Part shown: in pieces, positions 7,687 through 63,043 of the stretch
How the letters are laid out: each line of letters starts with the position of its first letter
Numbering within the stretch: the first letter of the stretch is position 1
From: Candidatus Sulfotelmatobacter sp.
GTDB lineage: Bacteria; Acidobacteriota; Terriglobia; Terriglobales; Acidobacteriaceae
Assembly: GCA_030041475.1 (NCBI GenBank)
Contig: JASHNU010000063.1
Coordinates: 1 to 64,000, forward strand
Length of the DNA stretch: 64,000 nucleotides
Direction: 5' to 3'
Translations under genes and position numbers: made by a program
The notes under the pieces: model-generated
The model's database searches: none
What the model saw: only the letters and a program-made list of their open reading frames with translations
Told to the model about the DNA's origin: nothing

Positions 7687-8256
7687 CTACGCAAGCGGCA
7701 GAACCTTCCTTTTGTAAACTGTATTCGCCAACGTCGCCATGGCGATATACCAGGCAACGAGCCCTGTCAAAAAGATTTCCCATCCTGCTACGGATGCGGG
7801 ACATTTCCCAAGGACCACGAAGTCGAGCAAGATAAACGCCAACAAAAGCAGCCAGAACAGGACTGCCAGGAACTTCCCGATGCCATGGACCGCAATGCAA
7901 AAGGCTAATGTGAACAGTGTCCACATCAGGAAAAAACCAAGCTCCTCGGGGTGACCCGCCGGGATTCCCGTCTTCGGCTGCACATACAGCAGCACAAATA
8001 ATGACCACCAAAAGGCGCCGTAGCTCATGAACGCGGACCCACCAAAGATGCTTCCTTTCCGAAGGTCCACAATTCCAGCAATGAATTGCGCCGTGCCTCC
8101 GAAGGTGATGGCTAGCGCCAACGTCGGTCCAGCGCTCCAGTATCCGACGTTGTGCAGACCCGTCGCCATGGTCGTCAAGCCGAAGCCCATTAGCCCCACT
8201 ACGGCTGGGTTCGCCCACCACTCCTTGCAAATACCACTGTCTGCCAATTCCGCCAT
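7687..8256 (-). CDS. satP: Acetate/succinate transporter, GPR1/FUN34/YaaH family
   Basis: Inner-membrane carrier of 189 residues with six predicted helices. The family signature NPAVVGLMGFGLTT is near residue 16, and AITFGGTAQFIAGIVDLRKG and the aromatic GAFWWSLF block follow. It probably takes up acetate or a related small carboxylate. The TAG stop falls exactly where the peptidase-derived repeat begins. Upstream lie Crp-type sites at 8295-8332. Base composition is less GC-rich than most of the window, which fits acquisition by transfer. Confidence 0.92.
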   Translation of the reverse strand: MAELADSGICKEWWANPAVVGLMGFGLTTMATGLHNVGYWSAGPTLALAITFGGTAQFIAGIVDLRKGSIFGGSAFMSYGAFWWSLFVLLYVQPKTGIPAGHPEELGFFLMWTLFTLAFCIAVHGIGKFLAVLFWLLLLAFILLDFVVLGKCPASVAGWEIFLTGLVAWYIAMATLANTVYKRKVLPLA

Positions 8257-8288
8257 AAGATTGTTCTCCCTTCGCGAAGGCCTGACGG

Positions 8289-8332
8289 ATTGTCTGTGAA
8301 ACCTCTAAGAAATATCTGTGAAACCTTTCACA
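8289..8332 (-). promoter_or_regulatory. Crp-type operator and -10 for satP
   Basis: TGTGAAACCTTTCACA (8317-8332) is a perfect palindrome fitting TGTGA-N6-TCACA. A half site TGTGAA (8295-8300) lies 22 bases away, two helix turns. A -10-like GACAAT (8294-8289, minus strand) would put the transcript start near 8283, which places the palindrome centre at about -41.5, a class II activator position. Confidence 0.6.
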
Positions 8333-8413
8333 AATCGCCAGGGAAAGTAAGTCCCCCACCCGAATATCCCGGCTGCGCCCACAAACTATCGCCTGACGAT
8401 ATTTTTTTTCACT

Positions 8414-8456
8414 TGTGAAAGCTCTCACGGAACTTGCGCTGAACTTGACCTAAAGT
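8414..8456 (+). promoter_or_regulatory. Crp-type operator and -10 for the gene at 8476
   Basis: TGTGAAAGCTCTCACG (8414-8429) matches the Crp pattern with one arm base off. TAAAGT at 8451-8456 is a plausible -10. A start near 8463 would put the operator centre (8421.5) at -41.5, again class II. The leader would be very short, with GGAG at 8464-8467. Confidence 0.55.
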
Positions 8457-8475
8457 TCTGACTGGAGAATTCGCG

Positions 8476-8856
8476 ATGGGAGATCCCGCGAAAGAGCCGC
8501 TCTGCACCGTGAAGGAATTGCTGGCGTTCGGGGTGATCTGCGTGGTTTATAGTTCGATCCTTTTCTCATTGGACCCGGAATGGGTCAGCTGGGCCGCCCC
8601 TTTGGCCTTCGGAGGCGCCCTCTATACGGCCGACCCACCTCCTGCTTCCGCCCACCTCGACTCACCTCATGATGTCCTGCCCATGGCGTACTTGTGCGAC
8701 GCCCTGAGCCTCCTCGGCATAGTGCTCCTCGCCCTGGTGCACGACAGGCGGCACCTCAGCTGGCTAGGGTGGTTCAAGGCCGAATCGGAAAGTGGAAGTA
8801 TTGCAAAAGTACGACGTTTCCTGAGGTCCGGGTTCGCGCTAATAGCCGGGCGTTGA
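8476..8856 (+). CDS. Small membrane protein upstream of the Crp-like regulator
   Basis: 126 residues with two likely membrane helices (about 12-46, possibly split, and 71-87), then a basic C-terminal part. No family recognised. GGAG precedes the ATG by 8 bases. It ends 16 bases before the regulator gene and is likely co-transcribed with it from the Crp-site promoter at 8414-8456. That would make the regulator autoregulated. Confidence 0.5.
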   Translation: MGDPAKEPLCTVKELLAFGVICVVYSSILFSLDPEWVSWAAPLAFGGALYTADPPPASAHLDSPHDVLPMAYLCDALSLLGIVLLALVHDRRHLSWLGWFKAESESGSIAKVRRFLRSGFALIAGR

Positions 8857-8872
8857 ACTCCCGAGCAGCCTG

Positions 8873-9640
8873 GTGCTAGCATCCTCGGTGCAACTCCCCG
8901 TCGCTGCCAAGAAGGTGTGGCCGCATTTCGTTAGCGCCCTCGACTTGTTTCAAGGGGTATCGCGGCAGGATGCGCGGAAGATCGCCAGCCTCTGCTCAGA
9001 GAAGTGGTTTCCCAGTGGGGCAACGATATTCCAGGAAGGCGAGTCTGCTCATTCCCTTTACGTCCTGAAACAAGGCATGGTTAGGCTCATTTCCCTCTCC
9101 GATCAAGGGCGGGAAACCATTCTCCACATTCTTAAGCCCGATGAGCTCTTCGGCGAACTCCTTCTCTCCGAGGAGAAGCGACCTTTCACGGCCATTGTCA
9201 CTGAGGATTCTCTGGTCACGGTCATTTCCCACGAATCTTTTGTGGAGCTTTTGTCGGCCGTCCCCACCCTCGCTCTGAACTTTATTCGGCTGCTTTCGAA
9301 GCGATTGGCCACGGTGGAGAGGGGACTGGCAGGATTCGGCCATACCTGGTCCTATCACCGCCTAGCTAAAGTGCTCCTCCAGTTAAGCGAAAAACACGGA
9401 CAGGAGGTTCCTGGCGGTACCCTAATCAACGTCCATCTGACCCATGAAGATCTGGCCAATTTGATTGGCACGAGTCGGGAAACGGTCACGACACAACTCG
9501 GCAAGTTCACACGCATGGGCCTCTTGAAACGCGAGGCTAGGCGTTTCGTCGTAGCCAGGTCCAAGCTCGCCGATTTCATTCGCTCCGAAGAACTTCGACT
9601 GAAGGATCTCCCCTTTTCTCCGGGGACAATTCCTCGGTAG
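8873..9640 (+). CDS. Crp/Fnr-family transcriptional regulator
   Basis: 255 residues from a GTG start. The cyclic-nucleotide-binding-like domain (about 25-145) has FPSGATIFQEGE and FGELLLSEEKRPFTA. A Crp-type winged helix-turn-helix (about 188-225) has THEDLANLIGTSRETVTTQL. R202 and E203 of SRETV correspond to the Crp residues that read the TGTGA half site, in agreement with the TGTGA-type palindromes nearby. No Fnr-type N-terminal cysteine cluster is present. The usual cAMP-contact arginine region is not typical, so the ligand is unknown. Likely targets in this window are satP, its own operon and the etfB/mtbC intergenic region. Confidence 0.9.
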   Translation: MLASSVQLPVAAKKVWPHFVSALDLFQGVSRQDARKIASLCSEKWFPSGATIFQEGESAHSLYVLKQGMVRLISLSDQGRETILHILKPDELFGELLLSEEKRPFTAIVTEDSLVTVISHESFVELLSAVPTLALNFIRLLSKRLATVERGLAGFGHTWSYHRLAKVLLQLSEKHGQEVPGGTLINVHLTHEDLANLIGTSRETVTTQLGKFTRMGLLKREARRFVVARSKLADFIRSEELRLKDLPFSPGTIPR

Positions 9641-56605: not shown

Positions 56606-58345
56606 TCACATCCCGTCGTAGTTCGGGCCGCCGCCGCCCTCGGGTGGCACCCAGTTGATGATCTGGTACGGATCAGCGATGTCGCAGGTCTTGCAGTGGA
56701 CGCAGTTCGACGGATTCAGGCTGATGCGCTTGCCGTTGGGTTGGGTCGTGTCATCGACCATTTCGTAGACGTTGGCCGGGCAGAAATTCTGGCAAGGGCT
56801 GCCGTACTCCCGCACGCAGCGCGTGTTGCAGTTGTTGGTGTCGTGGATAACGAGGTGCGCGGGCTGGTCTTCTTCGTGCTTGGTGCCCGAGTGGTAGAGG
56901 TCGGTAAGCTTGTCGAAGGTGAGTTTGCCGTCGCCTTTGTACGGGCCGAGCAGGTGGGCTTCGGGGTAGCCGTCGGCGGTGGGGTTCGCAGGAAGTTCGG
57001 CGAGTTTGCGCATACGGTCATATCCGGCATGGCCGGGATAGCGATTCTTCAGGCCACGGCCGCCGGTAATCATCTGCAGGCCGGTGTTGAACATACCGGC
57101 AAACATGCCACGCTCGAATCCCTGATGCAGGTTGCGCACTTTCCACAGCTCTTCTTTGATCCAGCTGGATTCGACTTTTTTCTGGAATTCGCTCAGCGTC
57201 GCGGCCGACGAGTCGTCTTTCGTCAGCGCTTCGAATGCCGTTTCAGCAGCGAGCACGCCGCTCTTGATGGCCAGATGAATTCCCTTCAGGCGCGCGGAGT
57301 TCAAAAAGCCGGCAGAGTCGCCGAGAATCATCCATCCGTTGCCCGCGACCGGAGGGATCGCCCACCAGCCGCCGTAAGGCATGGACTTCGCACCGTAGCG
57401 GATCATCTTGCCGCCCTCGAGCAACCTAGCCACAAACGGGTGCCGCTTGAATTCCTGCAACACGCGCTGCGGATCGAGCCGCGGGTCGGCGTAGTCGAGC
57501 CCGGTGACGAAGCCCAGCGAAACGATGCTGGTTGCGCCCTCGCCCTTTGAGCCGTAAATCCATGCGCCGCCGTATTCGTGCGTGGTGAGCGGCCAGCCCA
57601 TGGTGTAGATGACTTCGCCCGGCGCGATGCGGCCTGCAGGAAGTTCCCAGAGTTCTTTCACGCCGACGCCGTAGGTTTGCGGGTTCGCGTTCTTCGCGAG
57701 GTTGAATTTTTCGATGAGTTGTTTGGTCAGCGATCCGCGCGTGCCTTCGGCGAGGATGACAACCTTGGCTTGCAGATCGTAGCCGGGCTCGAAGTTCGAC
57801 TTCTGGTGGCCCTCTTTATCCACGCCTTTATCGTCGGTTTGAACGCCGGTGACACGATCGCCCTCGAACAGAAGTTCTGATCCGGCGAAACCGGTGAAAA
57901 TCGTGATCCCGGTTTCCTCAACCTTACTGCCCAGCCACTTCACGAAACGATTGAGCGAAATGACGTAGTTGCCGTGATCGCGCAGAAACGGCGGGGTGAT
58001 GGGAAACTTGAACTTGCCCTTCTCGGTAAGAAAGTAGACAGCTTCTTTCGTCACCTCAGCGTCGAGTGGCGCTTCTTTCTTGAAATCGGGGAGCAGCTCG
58101 GCGATAGCCCGCGGATCAAGCAGCGCTCCGGAAAGACAATGCTGGCCGATCTCGCGAGCTTTCTCGAGCACGTAGATGTTTTCTTTGCTGAGCTGTGCGT
58201 CAGGATGAGCGACGTTGTGGCCGTCGATCAGTTGGGCCAGGCGAAGAGCGCAGGCCATGCCGGCGGGGCCTCCGCCGACGATGACTACATCGGCGGGCAT
58301 CTGCGGGCGCTCAACGCCTTCGATCGGTTTGCGGAATACGAGCAT
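56606..58345 (-). CDS. Electron transfer flavoprotein-ubiquinone oxidoreductase
   Basis: 579 residues. Membrane-associated enzyme passing electrons from ETF to quinone. N-terminal FAD motif VVIVGGGPAGMACALRLAQ at about 21-40; the ubiquinone-binding middle region; and a C-terminal ferredoxin-like part with CVREYGSPCQNFCPANVY and NCVHCKTCDIADP, carrying the [4Fe-4S] ligands. With etfA and etfB upstream on the same strand it forms the complete branch. Confidence 0.95.
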   Translation of the reverse strand: MLVFRKPIEGVERPQMPADVVIVGGGPAGMACALRLAQLIDGHNVAHPDAQLSKENIYVLEKAREIGQHCLSGALLDPRAIAELLPDFKKEAPLDAEVTKEAVYFLTEKGKFKFPITPPFLRDHGNYVISLNRFVKWLGSKVEETGITIFTGFAGSELLFEGDRVTGVQTDDKGVDKEGHQKSNFEPGYDLQAKVVILAEGTRGSLTKQLIEKFNLAKNANPQTYGVGVKELWELPAGRIAPGEVIYTMGWPLTTHEYGGAWIYGSKGEGATSIVSLGFVTGLDYADPRLDPQRVLQEFKRHPFVARLLEGGKMIRYGAKSMPYGGWWAIPPVAGNGWMILGDSAGFLNSARLKGIHLAIKSGVLAAETAFEALTKDDSSAATLSEFQKKVESSWIKEELWKVRNLHQGFERGMFAGMFNTGLQMITGGRGLKNRYPGHAGYDRMRKLAELPANPTADGYPEAHLLGPYKGDGKLTFDKLTDLYHSGTKHEEDQPAHLVIHDTNNCNTRCVREYGSPCQNFCPANVYEMVDDTTQPNGKRISLNPSNCVHCKTCDIADPYQIINWVPPEGGGGPNYDGM

Positions 58346-58448: not shown

Positions 58449-59444
58449 TTACCCTCCCGCTTTCGCCTTCTTCACCTCTTCGATCAGCGGGGGAACGATG
58501 TCGAACAGGTTGCCCACCACCGCGTAGTCGGCAATCTCGAAAATCGGAGCCTCGGAATCTTTATTCACGGCAATGATGGTGCGCGAGCCCTTCATGCCGA
58601 CGATGTGCTGAATGGCGCCGCTGATGCCGAGAGCGAGATAGAGCTTCGGCGCAACGGTCTGGCCGGAAGAGCCGATCTGGCGGTCCATCGGAAGCCATCC
58701 GGAATCGCAAATCGGGCGCGACGCTGCGAGATCTCCACCGAGCGCGTCGGCAAGATTCTTCGCCATCTCGATATTCTTCTGCTCCTTGATGCCGCGGCCC
58801 ACAGCCACGATGACTTCGGCCTGGGTGAGGTCGACGGCCTGCTTGGCCTCTTTGAAAACTTCCTGCGGCTTGTTGCGGATCAAGCCGTCCGCGATTTCGA
58901 CTGGCACGATCTCGACAGGAGCGGCGCTGGCGCCGGCCTCGGCCTTGTCTCCACGAAACGCACCGTTCTGAAAAGTTGCGAACCACGGCACGTCACCGGC
59001 GAAGCTTACGTCAGCTGCAAGCTTGCCCTGGAACATTTGTCGCGTGAAGATAAGCTTGCCCGCATCATGTTTGAATCCGATGCAATCGCTGATCACCGTG
59101 CGACCCATGGCTGTCGCAAGCTTTGGAATGAAATCGCGCACCTGATAGGTGTGCGGCATGATCACGAGCTTCTGCTGCTTCGCAGCAAGAAACTGCTTGA
59201 GCGCAGCGGCAAATGCGTCGGGCGTGTAAGGTTCGAGCCTGGGTGATTCGATGGCATAGACTTTCGCGACTTTTTTCGCGGCGACTTCGGCAGCAATCGC
59301 GGCGGCATTCGCTCCGATGACAGCCGCTTCGAGTGGCCAGCCGGTGGCTGCCGCCAGAGCCTGGCCTGCGGTGATGGTTTCCCAGGAAACGCGATTCAGC
59401 TTGCCTTCGCGTTGCTCAACGACGACTAAAATCGTGTCTGCCAT
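58449..59444 (-). CDS. etfA: Electron transfer flavoprotein alpha subunit
   Basis: 331 residues from ATG 59444. The C-terminal FAD domain carries GRGIKEQKNIEMAK, RPICDSGWLPMDRQIGSSGQTVAPKLYLALGISGAIQH and AVNKDSEAPIF, all conserved. Forms a heterodimer with EtfB and collects electrons from acyl-CoA and related dehydrogenases. A repeat-containing 127-base gap separates it from etfB. Confidence 0.96.
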   Translation of the reverse strand: MADTILVVVEQREGKLNRVSWETITAGQALAAATGWPLEAAVIGANAAAIAAEVAAKKVAKVYAIESPRLEPYTPDAFAAALKQFLAAKQQKLVIMPHTYQVRDFIPKLATAMGRTVISDCIGFKHDAGKLIFTRQMFQGKLAADVSFAGDVPWFATFQNGAFRGDKAEAGASAAPVEIVPVEIADGLIRNKPQEVFKEAKQAVDLTQAEVIVAVGRGIKEQKNIEMAKNLADALGGDLAASRPICDSGWLPMDRQIGSSGQTVAPKLYLALGISGAIQHIVGMKGSRTIIAVNKDSEAPIFEIADYAVVGNLFDIVPPLIEEVKKAKAGG

Positions 59445-59448
59445 AGAC

Positions 59449-59540
59449 TCCCTGTCATTCCGAACCGGCGCACGGCGGGGGTAAGGAACCTGCTTTGCTC
59501 CAGCACGATCACAAATACTGCCGAGCTTCGCTCGGCCTGG
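59449..59540. repeat. SERSEES-type intergenic repeat
   Basis: TGTCATTCCGAACCGGCGCA ... GGTAAGGAACCTGCTTT fits the GTCATTCCGA...GGAATCTGCT family, here in the etfB-etfA gap. Confidence 0.5.
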
Positions 59541-59571
59541 CCGGGTCAAAGACCCGGCCCCACACAGGCAA

Positions 59572-60342
59572 TCACAGCACCCGCAACTCGTTGCGCAGCT
59601 TGTCCACCAACTTCTTTGCGATTTCAGCCGGCGGGCCGTCGATGTGTTCGGTCTTTTTTGTTTTCTGCGGAACGTACAGCTTCTCGATCTTCTGCAGGTT
59701 CCCGCCGATCGCCGATTGCACCTCGGCCAGCGTGACTTTGCGCAGTGGCTTGTTCTTGGCCTGCTTGATGCCGATCAGCGTTGCGTATCGCAGCTTGTTG
59801 ATGCCGGATTGAATCGTCAGCACGGCGGGCAAAGGCATGTCGACGAATTGAAAGTATCCGGCTTCGAGCTCGCGCTTTACCCGGATGCCGGCGTCCGTTT
59901 TTTCGATCTGCATGATGATGGTGGCGTGCGGCCAGCCCAGCAGTTCGGCGAGAATCACGCCGGTCTGGGCGTAGCCGTAGTCGTCGGACTGCAGCCCGGT
60001 GAAGATCAGGTCGAATTGTTCCTCTTTGATCGCGGTAGCGAAGGCCTTGGCCGTGTTGAAGGCGTCGAGGCCGACGAACTTGTCGTCTTCCAGATGGATG
60101 GCGCGGTCGGCGCCCTTGGCCAGTGCCTCGCGCAGCACCTGCTGCGCGCGAGCTGGGCCGCTGGTGATGACCACGACTTCGCCCTTGTGTTTTTCCCGTT
60201 GCCGAAGCGCCTCTTCGAGGGCGTAGGCGTCGGGCTCATTGACCTCGTAAGAAACATCTTCGCGGATCCAGGTGCCGGATTCATTGAGCTTTAGTGGCGC
60301 ATCTTTCTGCGGCACTTGCTTCATACAAACCAGGATTTTCAA
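59572..60342 (-). CDS. etfB: Electron transfer flavoprotein beta subunit
   Basis: 256 residues. MKILVCMKQVPQKDAPLKL, EALRQREKHKGEVVVITSGPA, DLIFTGLQSDDYGYAQTGVILAELLGWPHAT are diagnostic; AMP-binding subunit of ETF. First gene of the minus-strand operon. TATACT (60399-60394) is a good -10, with no obvious -35 box. The Crp-type palindrome at 60473-60488 would then lie at about -93.5. Confidence 0.96.
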   Translation of the reverse strand: MKILVCMKQVPQKDAPLKLNESGTWIREDVSYEVNEPDAYALEEALRQREKHKGEVVVITSGPARAQQVLREALAKGADRAIHLEDDKFVGLDAFNTAKAFATAIKEEQFDLIFTGLQSDDYGYAQTGVILAELLGWPHATIIMQIEKTDAGIRVKRELEAGYFQFVDMPLPAVLTIQSGINKLRYATLIGIKQAKNKPLRKVTLAEVQSAIGGNLQKIEKLYVPQKTKKTEHIDGPPAEIAKKLVDKLRNELRVL

Positions 60343-60472
60343 GAATTATGACTCCTTACTCGGTGGCTCCGGAGAGCCACAGCAAAACTGGTAAGTATAA
60401 ATGAGCGGTGAGTGTGGTAGGAAATGCCGCCCTGCGCCATTTATCGATGAGAATTCAACCGGAAGTCACATT

Positions 60473-60488
60473 TGTGATCGCAATCACA
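60473..60488. promoter_or_regulatory. Perfect Crp-type palindrome between etfB and the corrinoid protein gene
   Basis: TGTGATCGCAATCACA matches TGTGA-N6-TCACA exactly. Its centre is 45.5 bases before the mtbC-like start and about 93 bases before the predicted etfB transcript start. Confidence 0.65.
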
Positions 60489-60525
60489 GACCACCGCAGC
60501 CCCGCCGGGTCAGCATGGCCCAGAT

Positions 60526-61224
60526 ATGCCCTCAGATAGGCCGGACGACCTGTTCTCCACCATGCGCCAGAGCATCATTGACGGCGCGTCCGATACGGCA
60601 TCCAGCCTCGCGCGGCAGGCCGTCGCCTCTGGCGTCGCTCCACTCGATGCTATCAACAACGGCTACGTCCCCGGCATGCACGACGTAGGCGAGCAGTTCG
60701 CGAAGGGCCAGATGTTTCTGCCCGACATGATGGCCTCGGCCGAGGCCATGCGCGCGGCCATGGCCGTGCTGGACCCCGAACTGACCAAGGTCGGGGCAGA
60801 ACGGCCCACGGCGGGCGTGGTCGTGCTGGGCACCACAAAGGGAGACATCCACGAAATCGGAAAGATTCTCGTCGGCACGCTGCTTAGCGCGCATGGCTTT
60901 CGCGTTCACGATCTCGGAGTGGATGTGGCAGGCGACACGTTTGCCGCGAAGGCGCGCGAACTGGGCGCCGACATCGTGGGCGTATCGGCGTTGCTCACTA
61001 CGACGATGCGGAATCAGAAGGGCGTGATCGAGTCGCTGGAGAAAGCGGGCTTGCGTTCCCAGGTGAGGGTCATGGTGGGCGGAGCGCCGGTCACGCGCCG
61101 CTGGGCGGAAGAAATTGGCGCAGATGGCTATGCCAAGGACGCCATGAGCGCCGTGGACCTTGCCCGGGAGCTGATGAATCAGAAAGTGCTTCGGCAAAAC
61201 GCTCCCGTCGCGGAGCAGGCATGA
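60526..61224 (+). CDS. Corrinoid protein (MtbC-like, B12-binding)
   Basis: 232 residues. N-terminal helical cap (about 10-90) and a B12-binding Rossmann domain with D107-I-H109-E-I-G112, H109 being the cobalt ligand, then SALLTTTMRNQKGVIE and VGGAPVT. It carries the methyl group taken from the substrate by the MttB-type partner to a tetrahydrofolate or CoM methyltransferase. No Shine-Dalgarno precedes the ATG. Its stop overlaps mttB by four bases (ATGA). Confidence 0.92.
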   Translation: MPSDRPDDLFSTMRQSIIDGASDTASSLARQAVASGVAPLDAINNGYVPGMHDVGEQFAKGQMFLPDMMASAEAMRAAMAVLDPELTKVGAERPTAGVVVLGTTKGDIHEIGKILVGTLLSAHGFRVHDLGVDVAGDTFAAKARELGADIVGVSALLTTTMRNQKGVIESLEKAGLRSQVRVMVGGAPVTRRWAEEIGADGYAKDAMSAVDLARELMNQKVLRQNAPVAEQA

Positions 61225-62696
61225 GGCCAAAGTTCGAACTGCTCGACAAGGCGCTGATCGAGCGCATTCTCGACGAGGCTTTTCAGCTCCTCGAAGACCC
61301 CGGCGTGCGCGTCGCCCCTTACGTGGTCGAACTGCTGAGTTCGGCAGGAGTGGCGGTCGCCGACGGTGTCGCCCATATTCCCGAGGCTCTTGCCCGCCGG
61401 CTGCTCGATCTCGCTCCCCGTGGATTCTGCCTTTACGATCGCAGCGGCAAGCCTGCCGTGCGGTATGGCGGAGACGATGTTCATTTCGATCCTGGCTCGT
61501 CGTGCCTGAACATTCTTGATCCCGCAACGCAGCAGGCTCGCCCGGCGATGGCTGCCGACCTGGTGCGACTGGTGCAGGTCACCGAGATGCTGCCGGAGTT
61601 CGCGGCGCAGTCGACGGCGATAGTCTGCAATGACGTCCCACAGGAAATCGGCGACTGGTATCGGCTGCTGCTGGTACTCTGGTACTCCGAAAAGCCGGTG
61701 GTGACGGGCGCGTTCTCGGCGTCGAGCCTGCACACGCTGCTCGATGTGCTGGCGATCGAAAGCGGTGGCAGCGACGAACTGCGCCGGCATCCGCGGGCGA
61801 TCTTCGACGTCTGCCCGTCGCCGCCGCTGAACTGGTCGGAATTCGCATCGCAAAATCTGGTGGATCTGGCGCGGGGCGGCATTCCTGCGGAAATCGTCAG
61901 CATGCCGCTGGCAGGCGCAACGGCGCCCGTAACGCTGGCCGGTTCAGTCGTGCAGCACGCCGCCGAGTGCATTAGCGGAATCACGATCCATCAACTGGCG
62001 CAGCCCGGAGCGCCCATCGTTTGGGGTGGCGCGCCTGCGATCTTCGACATGCGCACGGGAAAAACGCCCATGGGCGCGATTGAGACGGCCATGCTCGACG
62101 TGGCTTGCGCGCAGGTCGGGAAATATGTCGGCTTGCCCACGCACGCGTATATGGTCGCGGGTGATGGCCGCGTGATTGATGCGCAGGTGGAAATGGAGAG
62201 CGGCATGTCGGCCGTGCTGGGCGCGCTGGCCGGGATCAACATGATTTCGGGGGCGGGGATGCTGGATTTTCTGGCCTGCCACAGCATCGAAAAGCTGGTG
62301 ATCGACGCCGAGGCTATCGCCTCGGCCAAGCGATTGATCGCGGGCATCGAGCCGCGCAGCGACTCGCTCGCCCTCGCGATGTTCGCGGAAACCGGCTTGC
62401 ACGGCGACTTCCTGAAATTGAAGGAAACTCGGGCGTTGTTCAGAAAGGAGCAGCACTTCCCTTCTGCGGTCATCGATCGCGGCCTCGCTTCTTCGGACGG
62501 CAGCACGCCCGGCATACTGGAACGCGCGGGGCAGCGTGTCGAAGAACTCATCTCAGCGTACGTGCGCCAGCCGCTGCCGGATGATCGCGAAAAAAAAATG
62601 ATTGCCTTCGCGCAGCGCGAAGGGAAAAAAGCCGGACTGGAAGGATTGCCGGAGATTCTCAAACCGGAGTACGCACCAGAAGCCGGATTGATGTGA
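61221..62696 (+). CDS. MttB-family methyltransferase, non-pyrrolysine type
   Basis: 491 residues. Demethylates a methylated amine and passes the methyl group to the corrinoid protein. N-terminal LIERILDEAFQLLEDPGV and the TIM-barrel segments DVCPSPPLNWSEFASQNL, IVSMPLAGATAPVTLAGSVVQ and GTPMGAIETAM-like residues match. The frame holds no internal TAG, so no pyrrolysine; such homologues (MtgB-type) act on glycine betaine or other quaternary amines rather than trimethylamine. No activase or second methyltransferase is in the window. Confidence 0.92.
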   Translation: MRPKFELLDKALIERILDEAFQLLEDPGVRVAPYVVELLSSAGVAVADGVAHIPEALARRLLDLAPRGFCLYDRSGKPAVRYGGDDVHFDPGSSCLNILDPATQQARPAMAADLVRLVQVTEMLPEFAAQSTAIVCNDVPQEIGDWYRLLLVLWYSEKPVVTGAFSASSLHTLLDVLAIESGGSDELRRHPRAIFDVCPSPPLNWSEFASQNLVDLARGGIPAEIVSMPLAGATAPVTLAGSVVQHAAECISGITIHQLAQPGAPIVWGGAPAIFDMRTGKTPMGAIETAMLDVACAQVGKYVGLPTHAYMVAGDGRVIDAQVEMESGMSAVLGALAGINMISGAGMLDFLACHSIEKLVIDAEAIASAKRLIAGIEPRSDSLALAMFAETGLHGDFLKLKETRALFRKEQHFPSAVIDRGLASSDGSTPGILERAGQRVEELISAYVRQPLPDDREKKMIAFAQREGKKAGLEGLPEILKPEYAPEAGLM

Positions 62697-62699
62697 TGA

Positions 62700-62717
62700 G
62701 CGGCCCTTCAAGGCCGC
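62700..62717. terminator. Weak bidirectional terminator
   Basis: GCGGCC-CTTCAA-GGCCGC, six pairs, right after the mttB stop and before the convergent gene at 62768. No T-tract. Confidence 0.35.
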
Positions 62718-62767
62718 GTAAACCATGAAAACCCGCTGGGCCTCAGCCCGCGTGCGACGTCGCGCCC

Positions 62768-63043
62768 CTACTCTGTGAAAACCACCGACTGCACACCGGA
62801 AATCTCAAACCGCTTGCGGCAGCGCATGTTTTTGCAGGCCATCAGGTCGTCTTTGCGCAGCATGTAGGAGCGGGCTTTAGCGAAGCGGGCACGGTCGCGC
62901 TCGTCGGCGCGTCCGGGAAGCTGGCGCTTCTTGGTGCGAACCAGCCAGGTCACCTCATATTCGGCCGATTGCTGGCAGTGCGGGCAATTCAGCGTGGCTT
63001 GCTTCTTTTCCTGCCGCTCATCGAAAAAATCTTTCTCTTCCAT
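62768..63043 (-). CDS. Small zinc-ribbon protein
   Basis: 91 residues. Two cysteine pairs, NCPHC (C19, C22) and CKNMRC (C70, C75), form a split zinc ribbon around a basic helical middle (KKRQLPGRADERDRARFAK). Cytoplasmic. Possible nucleic-acid binding; no family name recognised. Confidence 0.65.
   Translation of the reverse strand: MEEKDFFDERQEKKQATLNCPHCQQSAEYEVTWLVRTKKRQLPGRADERDRARFAKARSYMLRKDDLMACKNMRCRKRFEISGVQSVVFTE

Follow-up and report, generated by a model that had tools for sequence, protein, structure and literature searches.

A conserved CRP/FNR-type palindrome and its probable role as class II operator of a corrinoid methyltransferase operon in Acidobacteriota

We analysed a window of 64,000 nucleotides (nt) from a Candidatus Sulfotelmatobacter genome (Acidobacteriota), in which two groups of genes diverge from a 183-nt gap (Table 1). 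To one side lie etfB, with a TTG start at 60342, etfA and a gene for an ETF:quinone oxidoreductase; to the other, a gene for a corrinoid protein, starting with ATG at 60526, precedes that for an MttB-superfamily methyltransferase. The gap holds the palindrome TGTGATCGCAATCACA. The original prediction of a perfect Crp-type palindrome in this gap was borne out: its coordinates were confirmed, all ten consensus bases of TGTGA-N6-TCACA are present, and such sites are more frequent than expected by chance. The mirror symmetry extends over 6 bp per arm (TGTGAT/ATCACA) around an asymmetric inner CGCA. The centre lies 138.5 nt from the etfB start and 45.5 nt from the corrinoid start, in agreement with the 45 bases first given as the distance to the methyltransferase operon start codon.

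Table 1. Coordinates of the features discussed (position 1 is the first base of the window)
Feature	Position	Strand	Evidence or remark
satP, 126-aa membrane-type gene and CRP-like gene	7687-9640		satP on the minus strand
satP sites	8295, 8317, 8414		TGTGAAA-type
CRP-like gene	8873-9640
ETF:quinone oxidoreductase	56606..58345	-	PF05187 + PF21162
etfA	58449..59444	-	PF00766 + PF01012
etfB, divergent neighbour	59572..60342	-	PF01012
Divergent gap	60343-60525		183 nt
TATACT, conserved predicted etfB -10	60394..60399	-	in last 200 nt of 30/30 etfB upstream regions
CRP/FNR-family operator TGTGATCGCAATCACA	60473..60488	.	core GTGA-N6-TCAC kept in 20/20 aligned corrinoid loci
GAC flank, promoter side of operator	60489..60491	+	invariant in 20/20 corrinoid loci
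TCAGCAT, proposed corrinoid-operon -10	60510..60516	+	22 nt after operator; inferred assignment
Corrinoid (B12-binding) protein, MtgC/MtbC-like	60526..61224	+	PF02310 + PF02607 over cut-off
MttB-superfamily methyltransferase	61221..62696	+	PF06253, 254 bits; 491-aa uninterrupted frame

Under a first-order Markov model of the window, 0.037 perfect sites are expected per 64 kb and about 1e-4 in the gap alone, against two observed in the window. Genome-wide, 27 perfect sites were found against 2.7 expected (first-order Markov model), and a reversed-pattern control gave 0. With its two TGTGA/TCACA half sites, a 6-bp spacer and a frequency above chance, the element has the properties of a CRP/FNR-family operator, and judged by sequence alone it is genuine, conserved and functional.

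The best NCBIfam match of the corrinoid protein is NF047995 (MtgC; 224 bits, under its cut-off of 310), and the methyltransferase, the sole PF06253 (MTTB) match in the genome, scores 312 bits against TIGR02369, under its cut-off of 525. Since neither protein reaches an NCBIfam cut-off for a named substrate, no substrate was assigned. The methyltransferase frame contains no in-frame TAG and, with its PF06253 match, is therefore of the non-pyrrolysine MttB type. According to the available portion of a mire study, Acidobacteriota there expressed exclusively methanol and methoxylated-compound demethylation genes, and expression of the non-pyrrolysine mttB, a gene linked to quaternary amines, came from Proteobacteria (PMC10805028); acidobacterial expression of this kind of operon thus finds no support in that study.

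A contig scan with the corrinoid protein yielded 30 loci, 20 of them acidobacterial. The aligned set (n = 20) comprised the window and 19 acidobacterial loci; L030, which begins inside the gene, was left out, and the loci from outside the phylum (L031-L040) were analysed separately. L106 and L103, which share exact stretches of 400 and 1000 bases with L020 and L027, were counted once, and a second, distant candidate site in L024 (two mismatches) and L025 was disregarded. Across the aligned set GTGA-N6-TCAC is invariant, and all ten consensus bases are matched in 14/20. The operator centre lies 42.5-65.5 nt from the assigned corrinoid start (mean 51.1, sd 4.7), and the invariant GAC flank is followed by a spacer of low information and then by a TCAGCAT- or TCAAAT-like element, approximately TCA(G/A)(C/A)AT. 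The upstream sequence covered in L021-L029 (1.4 to 8 kb) showed no etfB, and all nine loci keep the site (four perfect, four with one mismatch, one with two). Seven further corrinoid loci came from whole genomes; five (G056, G088, G060, G012 and G073) have a site with at most one mismatch, G060 alone of the seven with the GAC flank, and the upstream regions in G018 and G035 have no site at that threshold. Overall, the site precedes the corrinoid gene in 25/27 acidobacterial loci, often as NGTGAC..GTCACA in the deeper relatives, and near the start of 0/10 homologues outside the phylum. In simulated sequence, the probability of a start-adjacent site was 0.004 with up to one mismatch and 0.05 with up to two. 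These comparisons support control of the methyltransferase operon by a regulator that, judged by its predicted operator, belongs to the CRP/FNR family.

Class II CRP/FNR activators bind sites centred at about -41.5. Around 87 sites, chosen without regard to promoter motifs, we tallied TANNNT in all 174 oriented flanks; the sites came from the genome of the window (G000, 27/27 sites) and two others (G063, 22/27; G111, 38/38). Matches numbered 24 at offsets 22-24 after the site, with the peak at 22-23 nt; other three-base windows had 3.5 on average and never more than 8. Three of four permuted motifs stayed flat (4, 7 and 5 matches at these offsets, where the means were 5.8, 7.9 and 6.2); the fourth, T..A.T, which has letters in common with real -10 sequences, gave 14 against a mean of 5.9. 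A -10 element at offset 22 places the operator centre at -41.5, the class II position, and class II -10 elements stand behind several other sites of the genome (TACCCT, TACTTA and TTCAAT, for example). In the window the proposed -10 fits the looser pattern [TC]A..[AC]T, not TANNNT. The predicted +1 falls near 60523, which puts the operator centre at about -42.5 and leaves a leader of about 3 nt, compared with about 8 nt in most close relatives. From this geometry, a centre at about -41.5 with a -10 hexamer 22 nt past the 16-mer, we infer that the operator would act on the corrinoid operon from a class II position. A riboswitch or structured leader before the corrinoid gene was also considered and rejected: no Rfam match was found at E up to 1 across 59400-62800, and the predicted leader is about 3-8 nt long.

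The etfB side of the gap looks different. In the best 30 loci of the order, taken from 89 genomes with an etfB match, the predicted -10 is always present, and a site with at most one mismatch within 400 nt is absent from 27/30 upstream regions. The three with a site are those of G000 and G080, where it is common to the corrinoid operon, and of G063; conservation of the palindrome upstream of etfB, which had been named as a check on the original prediction, is thus limited to 3/30. Among the ten loci with etfB adjacent, the distance from operator to etfB start ranges from 103.5 to 438.5 nt (sd 98), and relative to the transcription start deduced from TATACT the sites lie at -59.5 to -396.5, with no helical phasing (Rayleigh R 0.23, n = 9, p ~0.6). 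The conserved, phased position of a class I CRP site is therefore not seen. On the basis of these sequences, etfB appears to have its own promoter (TATACT) and to be a bystander to the palindrome.

We weighed whether a single operator might nonetheless act in both directions where the genes adjoin, as a class II site for the corrinoid operon and incidentally as a class I site for etfB. The genes are adjacent in ten aligned loci, and spacings of 93.5, 104.5, 105.5 and 114.5 are near phase, but two loci with a spacing of 66.5 fall out of phase, the Rayleigh statistic gives no sign of phasing, and most etfB promoters have no site, so that we regard such two-way action as unlikely.

Other elements were noted near etfB. 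The G063 region carries the perfect site TGTGAGGCTGATCACA 109 nt from etfB, with GAC on neither side; no MTTB gene was found in G063, and a homologue of the window gene 62768-63043 lies directly upstream of its etfB on the same strand (L171 / L124). This site may be left over from a corrinoid operon since lost, or it may truly serve etfB. A conserved TTTATACT occurs in 27/30 etfB upstream regions, and in 9/10 close loci a GGAAA (TTTCC) motif stands 70-77 nt ahead of the start of etfB; these are possibly the site of another regulator.

We also considered the genes that neighbour the 27 perfect sites of the genome. They include those for PFOR, a NiFe hydrogenase pair, a TIGR04053 radical-SAM protein, citrate synthase, AsnA, an NfnA-like subunit, the alpha subunit of a 2-oxoacid:ferredoxin oxidoreductase (Kor; 424 bits, cut-off 411), which is preceded by a ferredoxin-like frame, and a BcrC-like (benzoyl-CoA-reductase-like) protein with an activase domain (346 bits, under the cut-off of 421). 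The adhE start is 812 nt from its site, and a methylmalonyl-CoA mutase large domain is 197 nt away from another. Neighbours without an evident anaerobic link, named by eye, are glyS and genes for a Ser/Thr kinase, a recombinase, a peptidase and a response regulator. Conservation was assessed in 57 stretches around 60 sites of G063 and G111 (match at E 1e-15). In 26/57, some gene matches a frame near a site of the window's genome, several at paralogue level only; in the other 31, no gene matches any such neighbour. Sites before the radical-SAM gene and before a YraN/galT pair are conserved in both genomes, those at Kor, PFOR, citrate synthase, a CxxCH protein (cytochrome-c-like by eye, with no Pfam match) and the hemA region in G063, and that at glyS in G111. 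None of the sites at the hydrogenase, BcrC-like, Nfn-like, AsnA and AdhE genes turned up again in the 57 stretches. The anaerobic character of the set is our judgement from the neighbours that could be named. Two observations stand beside it: two genera (L056, 3375; L168, 2546) share a site some 50 nt ahead of glyS, identified by eye as the gene for glycyl-tRNA synthetase beta, for which anaerobic control has no obvious rationale, and genes for UspA-type universal stress proteins (by eye) are found near sites in L049 and L052, the PFOR and cyclic-2,3-diphosphoglycerate-synthetase-like loci.

The genome has six HTH_Crp_2 matches, four over cut-off. A CxxC-x8-C motif near the N-terminus marks two near-paralogues on contig C43 and one protein on contig C18. 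In 32 homologous loci selected without a cysteine filter (among them L070, the reference gene), the cysteines C13, C16, C25 and C64 and the residues R201, E202 and R206 are present in 32/32. An earlier set of 26 regulators had been pre-filtered for CxxC-x6-9-C, so that its first three cysteines are partly invariant by choice; three of the 29 regulators that passed were left out of it, and L093, L096 and L097 had been lost through the filter itself. The Cys-type regulator has a CRP-like R-E-x-x-x-R recognition helix; in the available text of two reports, R, E and R at helix positions 1, 2 and 6 accompany TGTGA sites, with the specificity pairs R180-G3 and E181-A6 (PMC1274295, PMC5701242).

The density of TGTGA-N6-TCACA sites follows the best Cys-type match (rho 0.75 over 120 genomes, phylogeny being crudely controlled; 0.73 over 38 genus means, with -0.10 for a reversed-pattern control). 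The partial correlation given HTH_Crp_2 density is 0.68, and in the reverse partial 0.09 is left for HTH_Crp_2 density once the Cys-type match is accounted for. Contrasts within genera bear this out in part: in g29, a 78%-identical orthologue goes with 38 sites in G111, and only a 50% match with 7 sites in G096; in g1, the carriers G000, G063 and G080 have 27, 27 and 41 sites, the non-carriers G085 and G117 6 and 8. Exceptions in g1 are G110, with a close regulator orthologue and 11 sites, and G014, with only a 52% match and 23 sites. The tighter pattern TGTGAT-N4-ATCACA accounts for 12/27 sites in G000, 14/27 in G063, 12/41 in G080 and 12/38 in G111, and for 2/11 in G110 and 2/15 in G102, both with close regulator orthologues; it was rejected as sole measure. 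There is a hint here that the inner operator bases shift with the regulator clade, although G110 and G102 show that this rule is not strict. From its CRP-like helix, its four invariant cysteines and the covariation with site density, the most likely reader would be the Cys-type paralogue pair G000:C43:221584 and C43:189859. The third regulator type (contig C18, 398-aa frame) was set aside as reader: it does not alone explain the site load, because G085 (L099) and, by frame length, G117 carry this type and yet are poor in sites.

The candidate reader resembles several known systems in part. E. coli FNR carries an N-terminal CxxC-x5-C motif and a fourth cysteine near position 122. The system described here is like FNR and class II promoters in its site at about -41.5, its weak -10, its N-terminal CxxC...C and its anaerobic targets. 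It is unlike FNR in its site (TGTGA-N6-TCACA rather than TTGAT-N4-ATCAA), in a third cysteine that follows after eight residues rather than five, and in C64, which is apparently not at the place of FNR Cys122; with CxxC-x8-C plus C64, the family does not have the cysteine arrangement of FNR proper. By profile matches, its overall sequence is closer to CRP/GlxR-like chains than to FNR. With E. coli CRP and GlxR it shares the consensus site, the R-E-x-x-x-R reading helix and its best matches among sequences of solved structure; it differs in having GLNA and YEVT for GELS and RTSS and four invariant cysteines, and no class III cyclase was found. Desulfovibrio HcpR/HcpR1, as far as the available text of the reports goes, is likewise of the CRP/FNR family, with TGTGA-N6-TCACA sites, a regulon of anaerobic energy metabolism and co-evolution of regulator and site (PMC1274295, PMC545781, PMC5701242). 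It differs in phylum, in its core target hcp, which was not recognised among the named neighbours here, and in its cysteines: in the accessible part of its description HcpR is without the FNR-type cysteine motif (PMC1274295), whereas the Cys-type family has four cysteines in 32/32 loci and so falls outside that definition.

This likeness also bears on the signal, since a Cys-type reader might sense NO or another redox signal, not oxygen, in the manner suggested for HcpR1 (heme) and HcpR2 (Fe-S). In the available text on these proteins, HcpR1 binds both TGTGA-N6-TCACA and heme, and HcpR2 is discussed in connection with Fe-S clusters damaged by NO (PMC5701242). The nameable site neighbours here, however, are fermentative and ferredoxin enzymes, with no hcp, nor or nap recognised among them, most of the 171 frames being unannotated, and we hold sensing of this kind to be rather improbable.

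The GELS and RTSS stretches of GlxR contact cAMP. The Cys-type protein has GLNA opposite the former and YEVT opposite the latter, and thus does not have the cAMP-contact residues expected of the regulator of a cAMP-CRP regulon. A class III adenylate cyclase (PF00211) was not found in the 99.6% complete genome by a search that was positive in 5/14 control genomes. The available account of HcpR1 describes a non-cAMP regulator that also reads TGTGA-N6-TCACA (PMC5701242). On these three grounds, "Crp" in its cAMP sense, as used in the original prediction, is not supported; a textbook "Crp box" need not imply cAMP.

The other perfect TGTGA-N6-TCACA context in which a common signal had been proposed is that of satP. 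The three satP sites lie between satP and the 126-aa gene that precedes the CRP-like gene, and their inner bases differ from those of the site at 60473. The CRP-like protein has a single cysteine and, by eye, a GEL motif, and was found in 2/120 genomes at E 1e-40. In G012, a satP-like gene (38% identity) is grouped with counterparts of the membrane-type gene (58%) and of the regulator (71%), and AGTGAAAGCTTTCACA precedes satP. The cassette is best read, from its gene content and sites, as a separate local circuit. The proposal that the palindrome answers to the same signal as satP is not supported, given the TGTGAAA-type site, the cassette's own regulator and the rarity of that regulator.

These results bear on the scheme first put forward, in which a regulator of cAMP-CRP type, bound at -93.5, would activate etfB in class I fashion and would be shared with the methyltransferase operon and satP. 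The distance of -93.5 is arithmetically right if TATACT (the complement of 60394-60399) is the etfB -10, and it is helically sensible in the window and in L011; G063 keeps its site near etfB with no MTTB found, and a link between ETF and demethylation is biochemically conceivable. Against this stand the 27/30 etfB regions without a site although TATACT is present in 30/30, the unconserved spacing and phasing, the class III cyclase that was not found and the other type of the satP site, which together make the scheme highly unlikely. What survives of the idea of a Crp operator for both operons is the CRP/FNR family and the control of the methyltransferase operon; etfB as a client does not, cAMP as the signal probably does not, and coupling of etfB and satP to the palindrome is not supported. 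That the window's own CRP-like protein, 51 kb away beside satP, reads the palindrome is extremely improbable: it is of the CRP/FNR family, lies near a perfect TGTGA-N6-TCACA and has, by eye, a GEL motif like cAMP-binding relatives, but its presence in so few genomes makes it unlikely as a conserved reader, it was not found in G080, which keeps MttB and the site, nor in G063 and G111 despite their 27 and 38 sites, and its local sites are of the TGTGAAA/TTTCACA type, in a cassette that recurs with such sites in G012.

We therefore favour, as reasonably likely in its entirety, a reading in which the palindrome is a class II operator of the corrinoid/MttB operon, read by a Cys-type protein in response to low oxygen or a redox signal within an anaerobic regulon, with etfB a bystander. 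A CRP/FNR-family activator would bind the palindrome and switch on the operon from a centre at about -41.5 to -42.5, beside the poor -10 TCAGCAT. The activator would be the Cys-type CRP/FNR pair, with a putative iron-sulfur cluster on its four cysteines; its signal is probably lack of oxygen, or another redox signal, rather than cAMP. The corrinoid operon would be one member of an anaerobic-metabolism regulon, and etfB would run from its own promoter. The site, its conservation, its geometry, its neighbours and its covariation with the regulator family are what the sequences themselves provide.

A literature search that covered few subscription journals turned up neither an acidobacterial CRP/FNR regulon nor this operator, nor an account of how these bacteria change over to anoxic life. 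Tentatively, and at somewhat short of even chances, the Acidobacteriota of this order may have an undescribed class of redox regulator, with a CRP/GlxR-like body, a CRP-type reading helix and a four-Cys Fe-S sensor whose fourth ligand is in an unusual place, which would serve as a master anaerobic switch, the operon carrying its own class II promoter between locations. Peat and soil Acidobacteria include facultative anaerobes; in the available text of one report, relatives from peatland, among them SbA1, from whose record L017 comes, are described as such, with hydrogenases and fermentation genes (PMC6018796). For these bacteria the favoured reading offers a master regulator that can be tested, together with a rule for its sites and a list of targets, and would put methyl-group demethylation, a step possibly feeding wetland carbon flow, under an anoxic switch. 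Both regulator genes on contig C43 themselves have a one-mismatch site upstream (L066, 3341; L067, 3288), and their autoregulation is possible.
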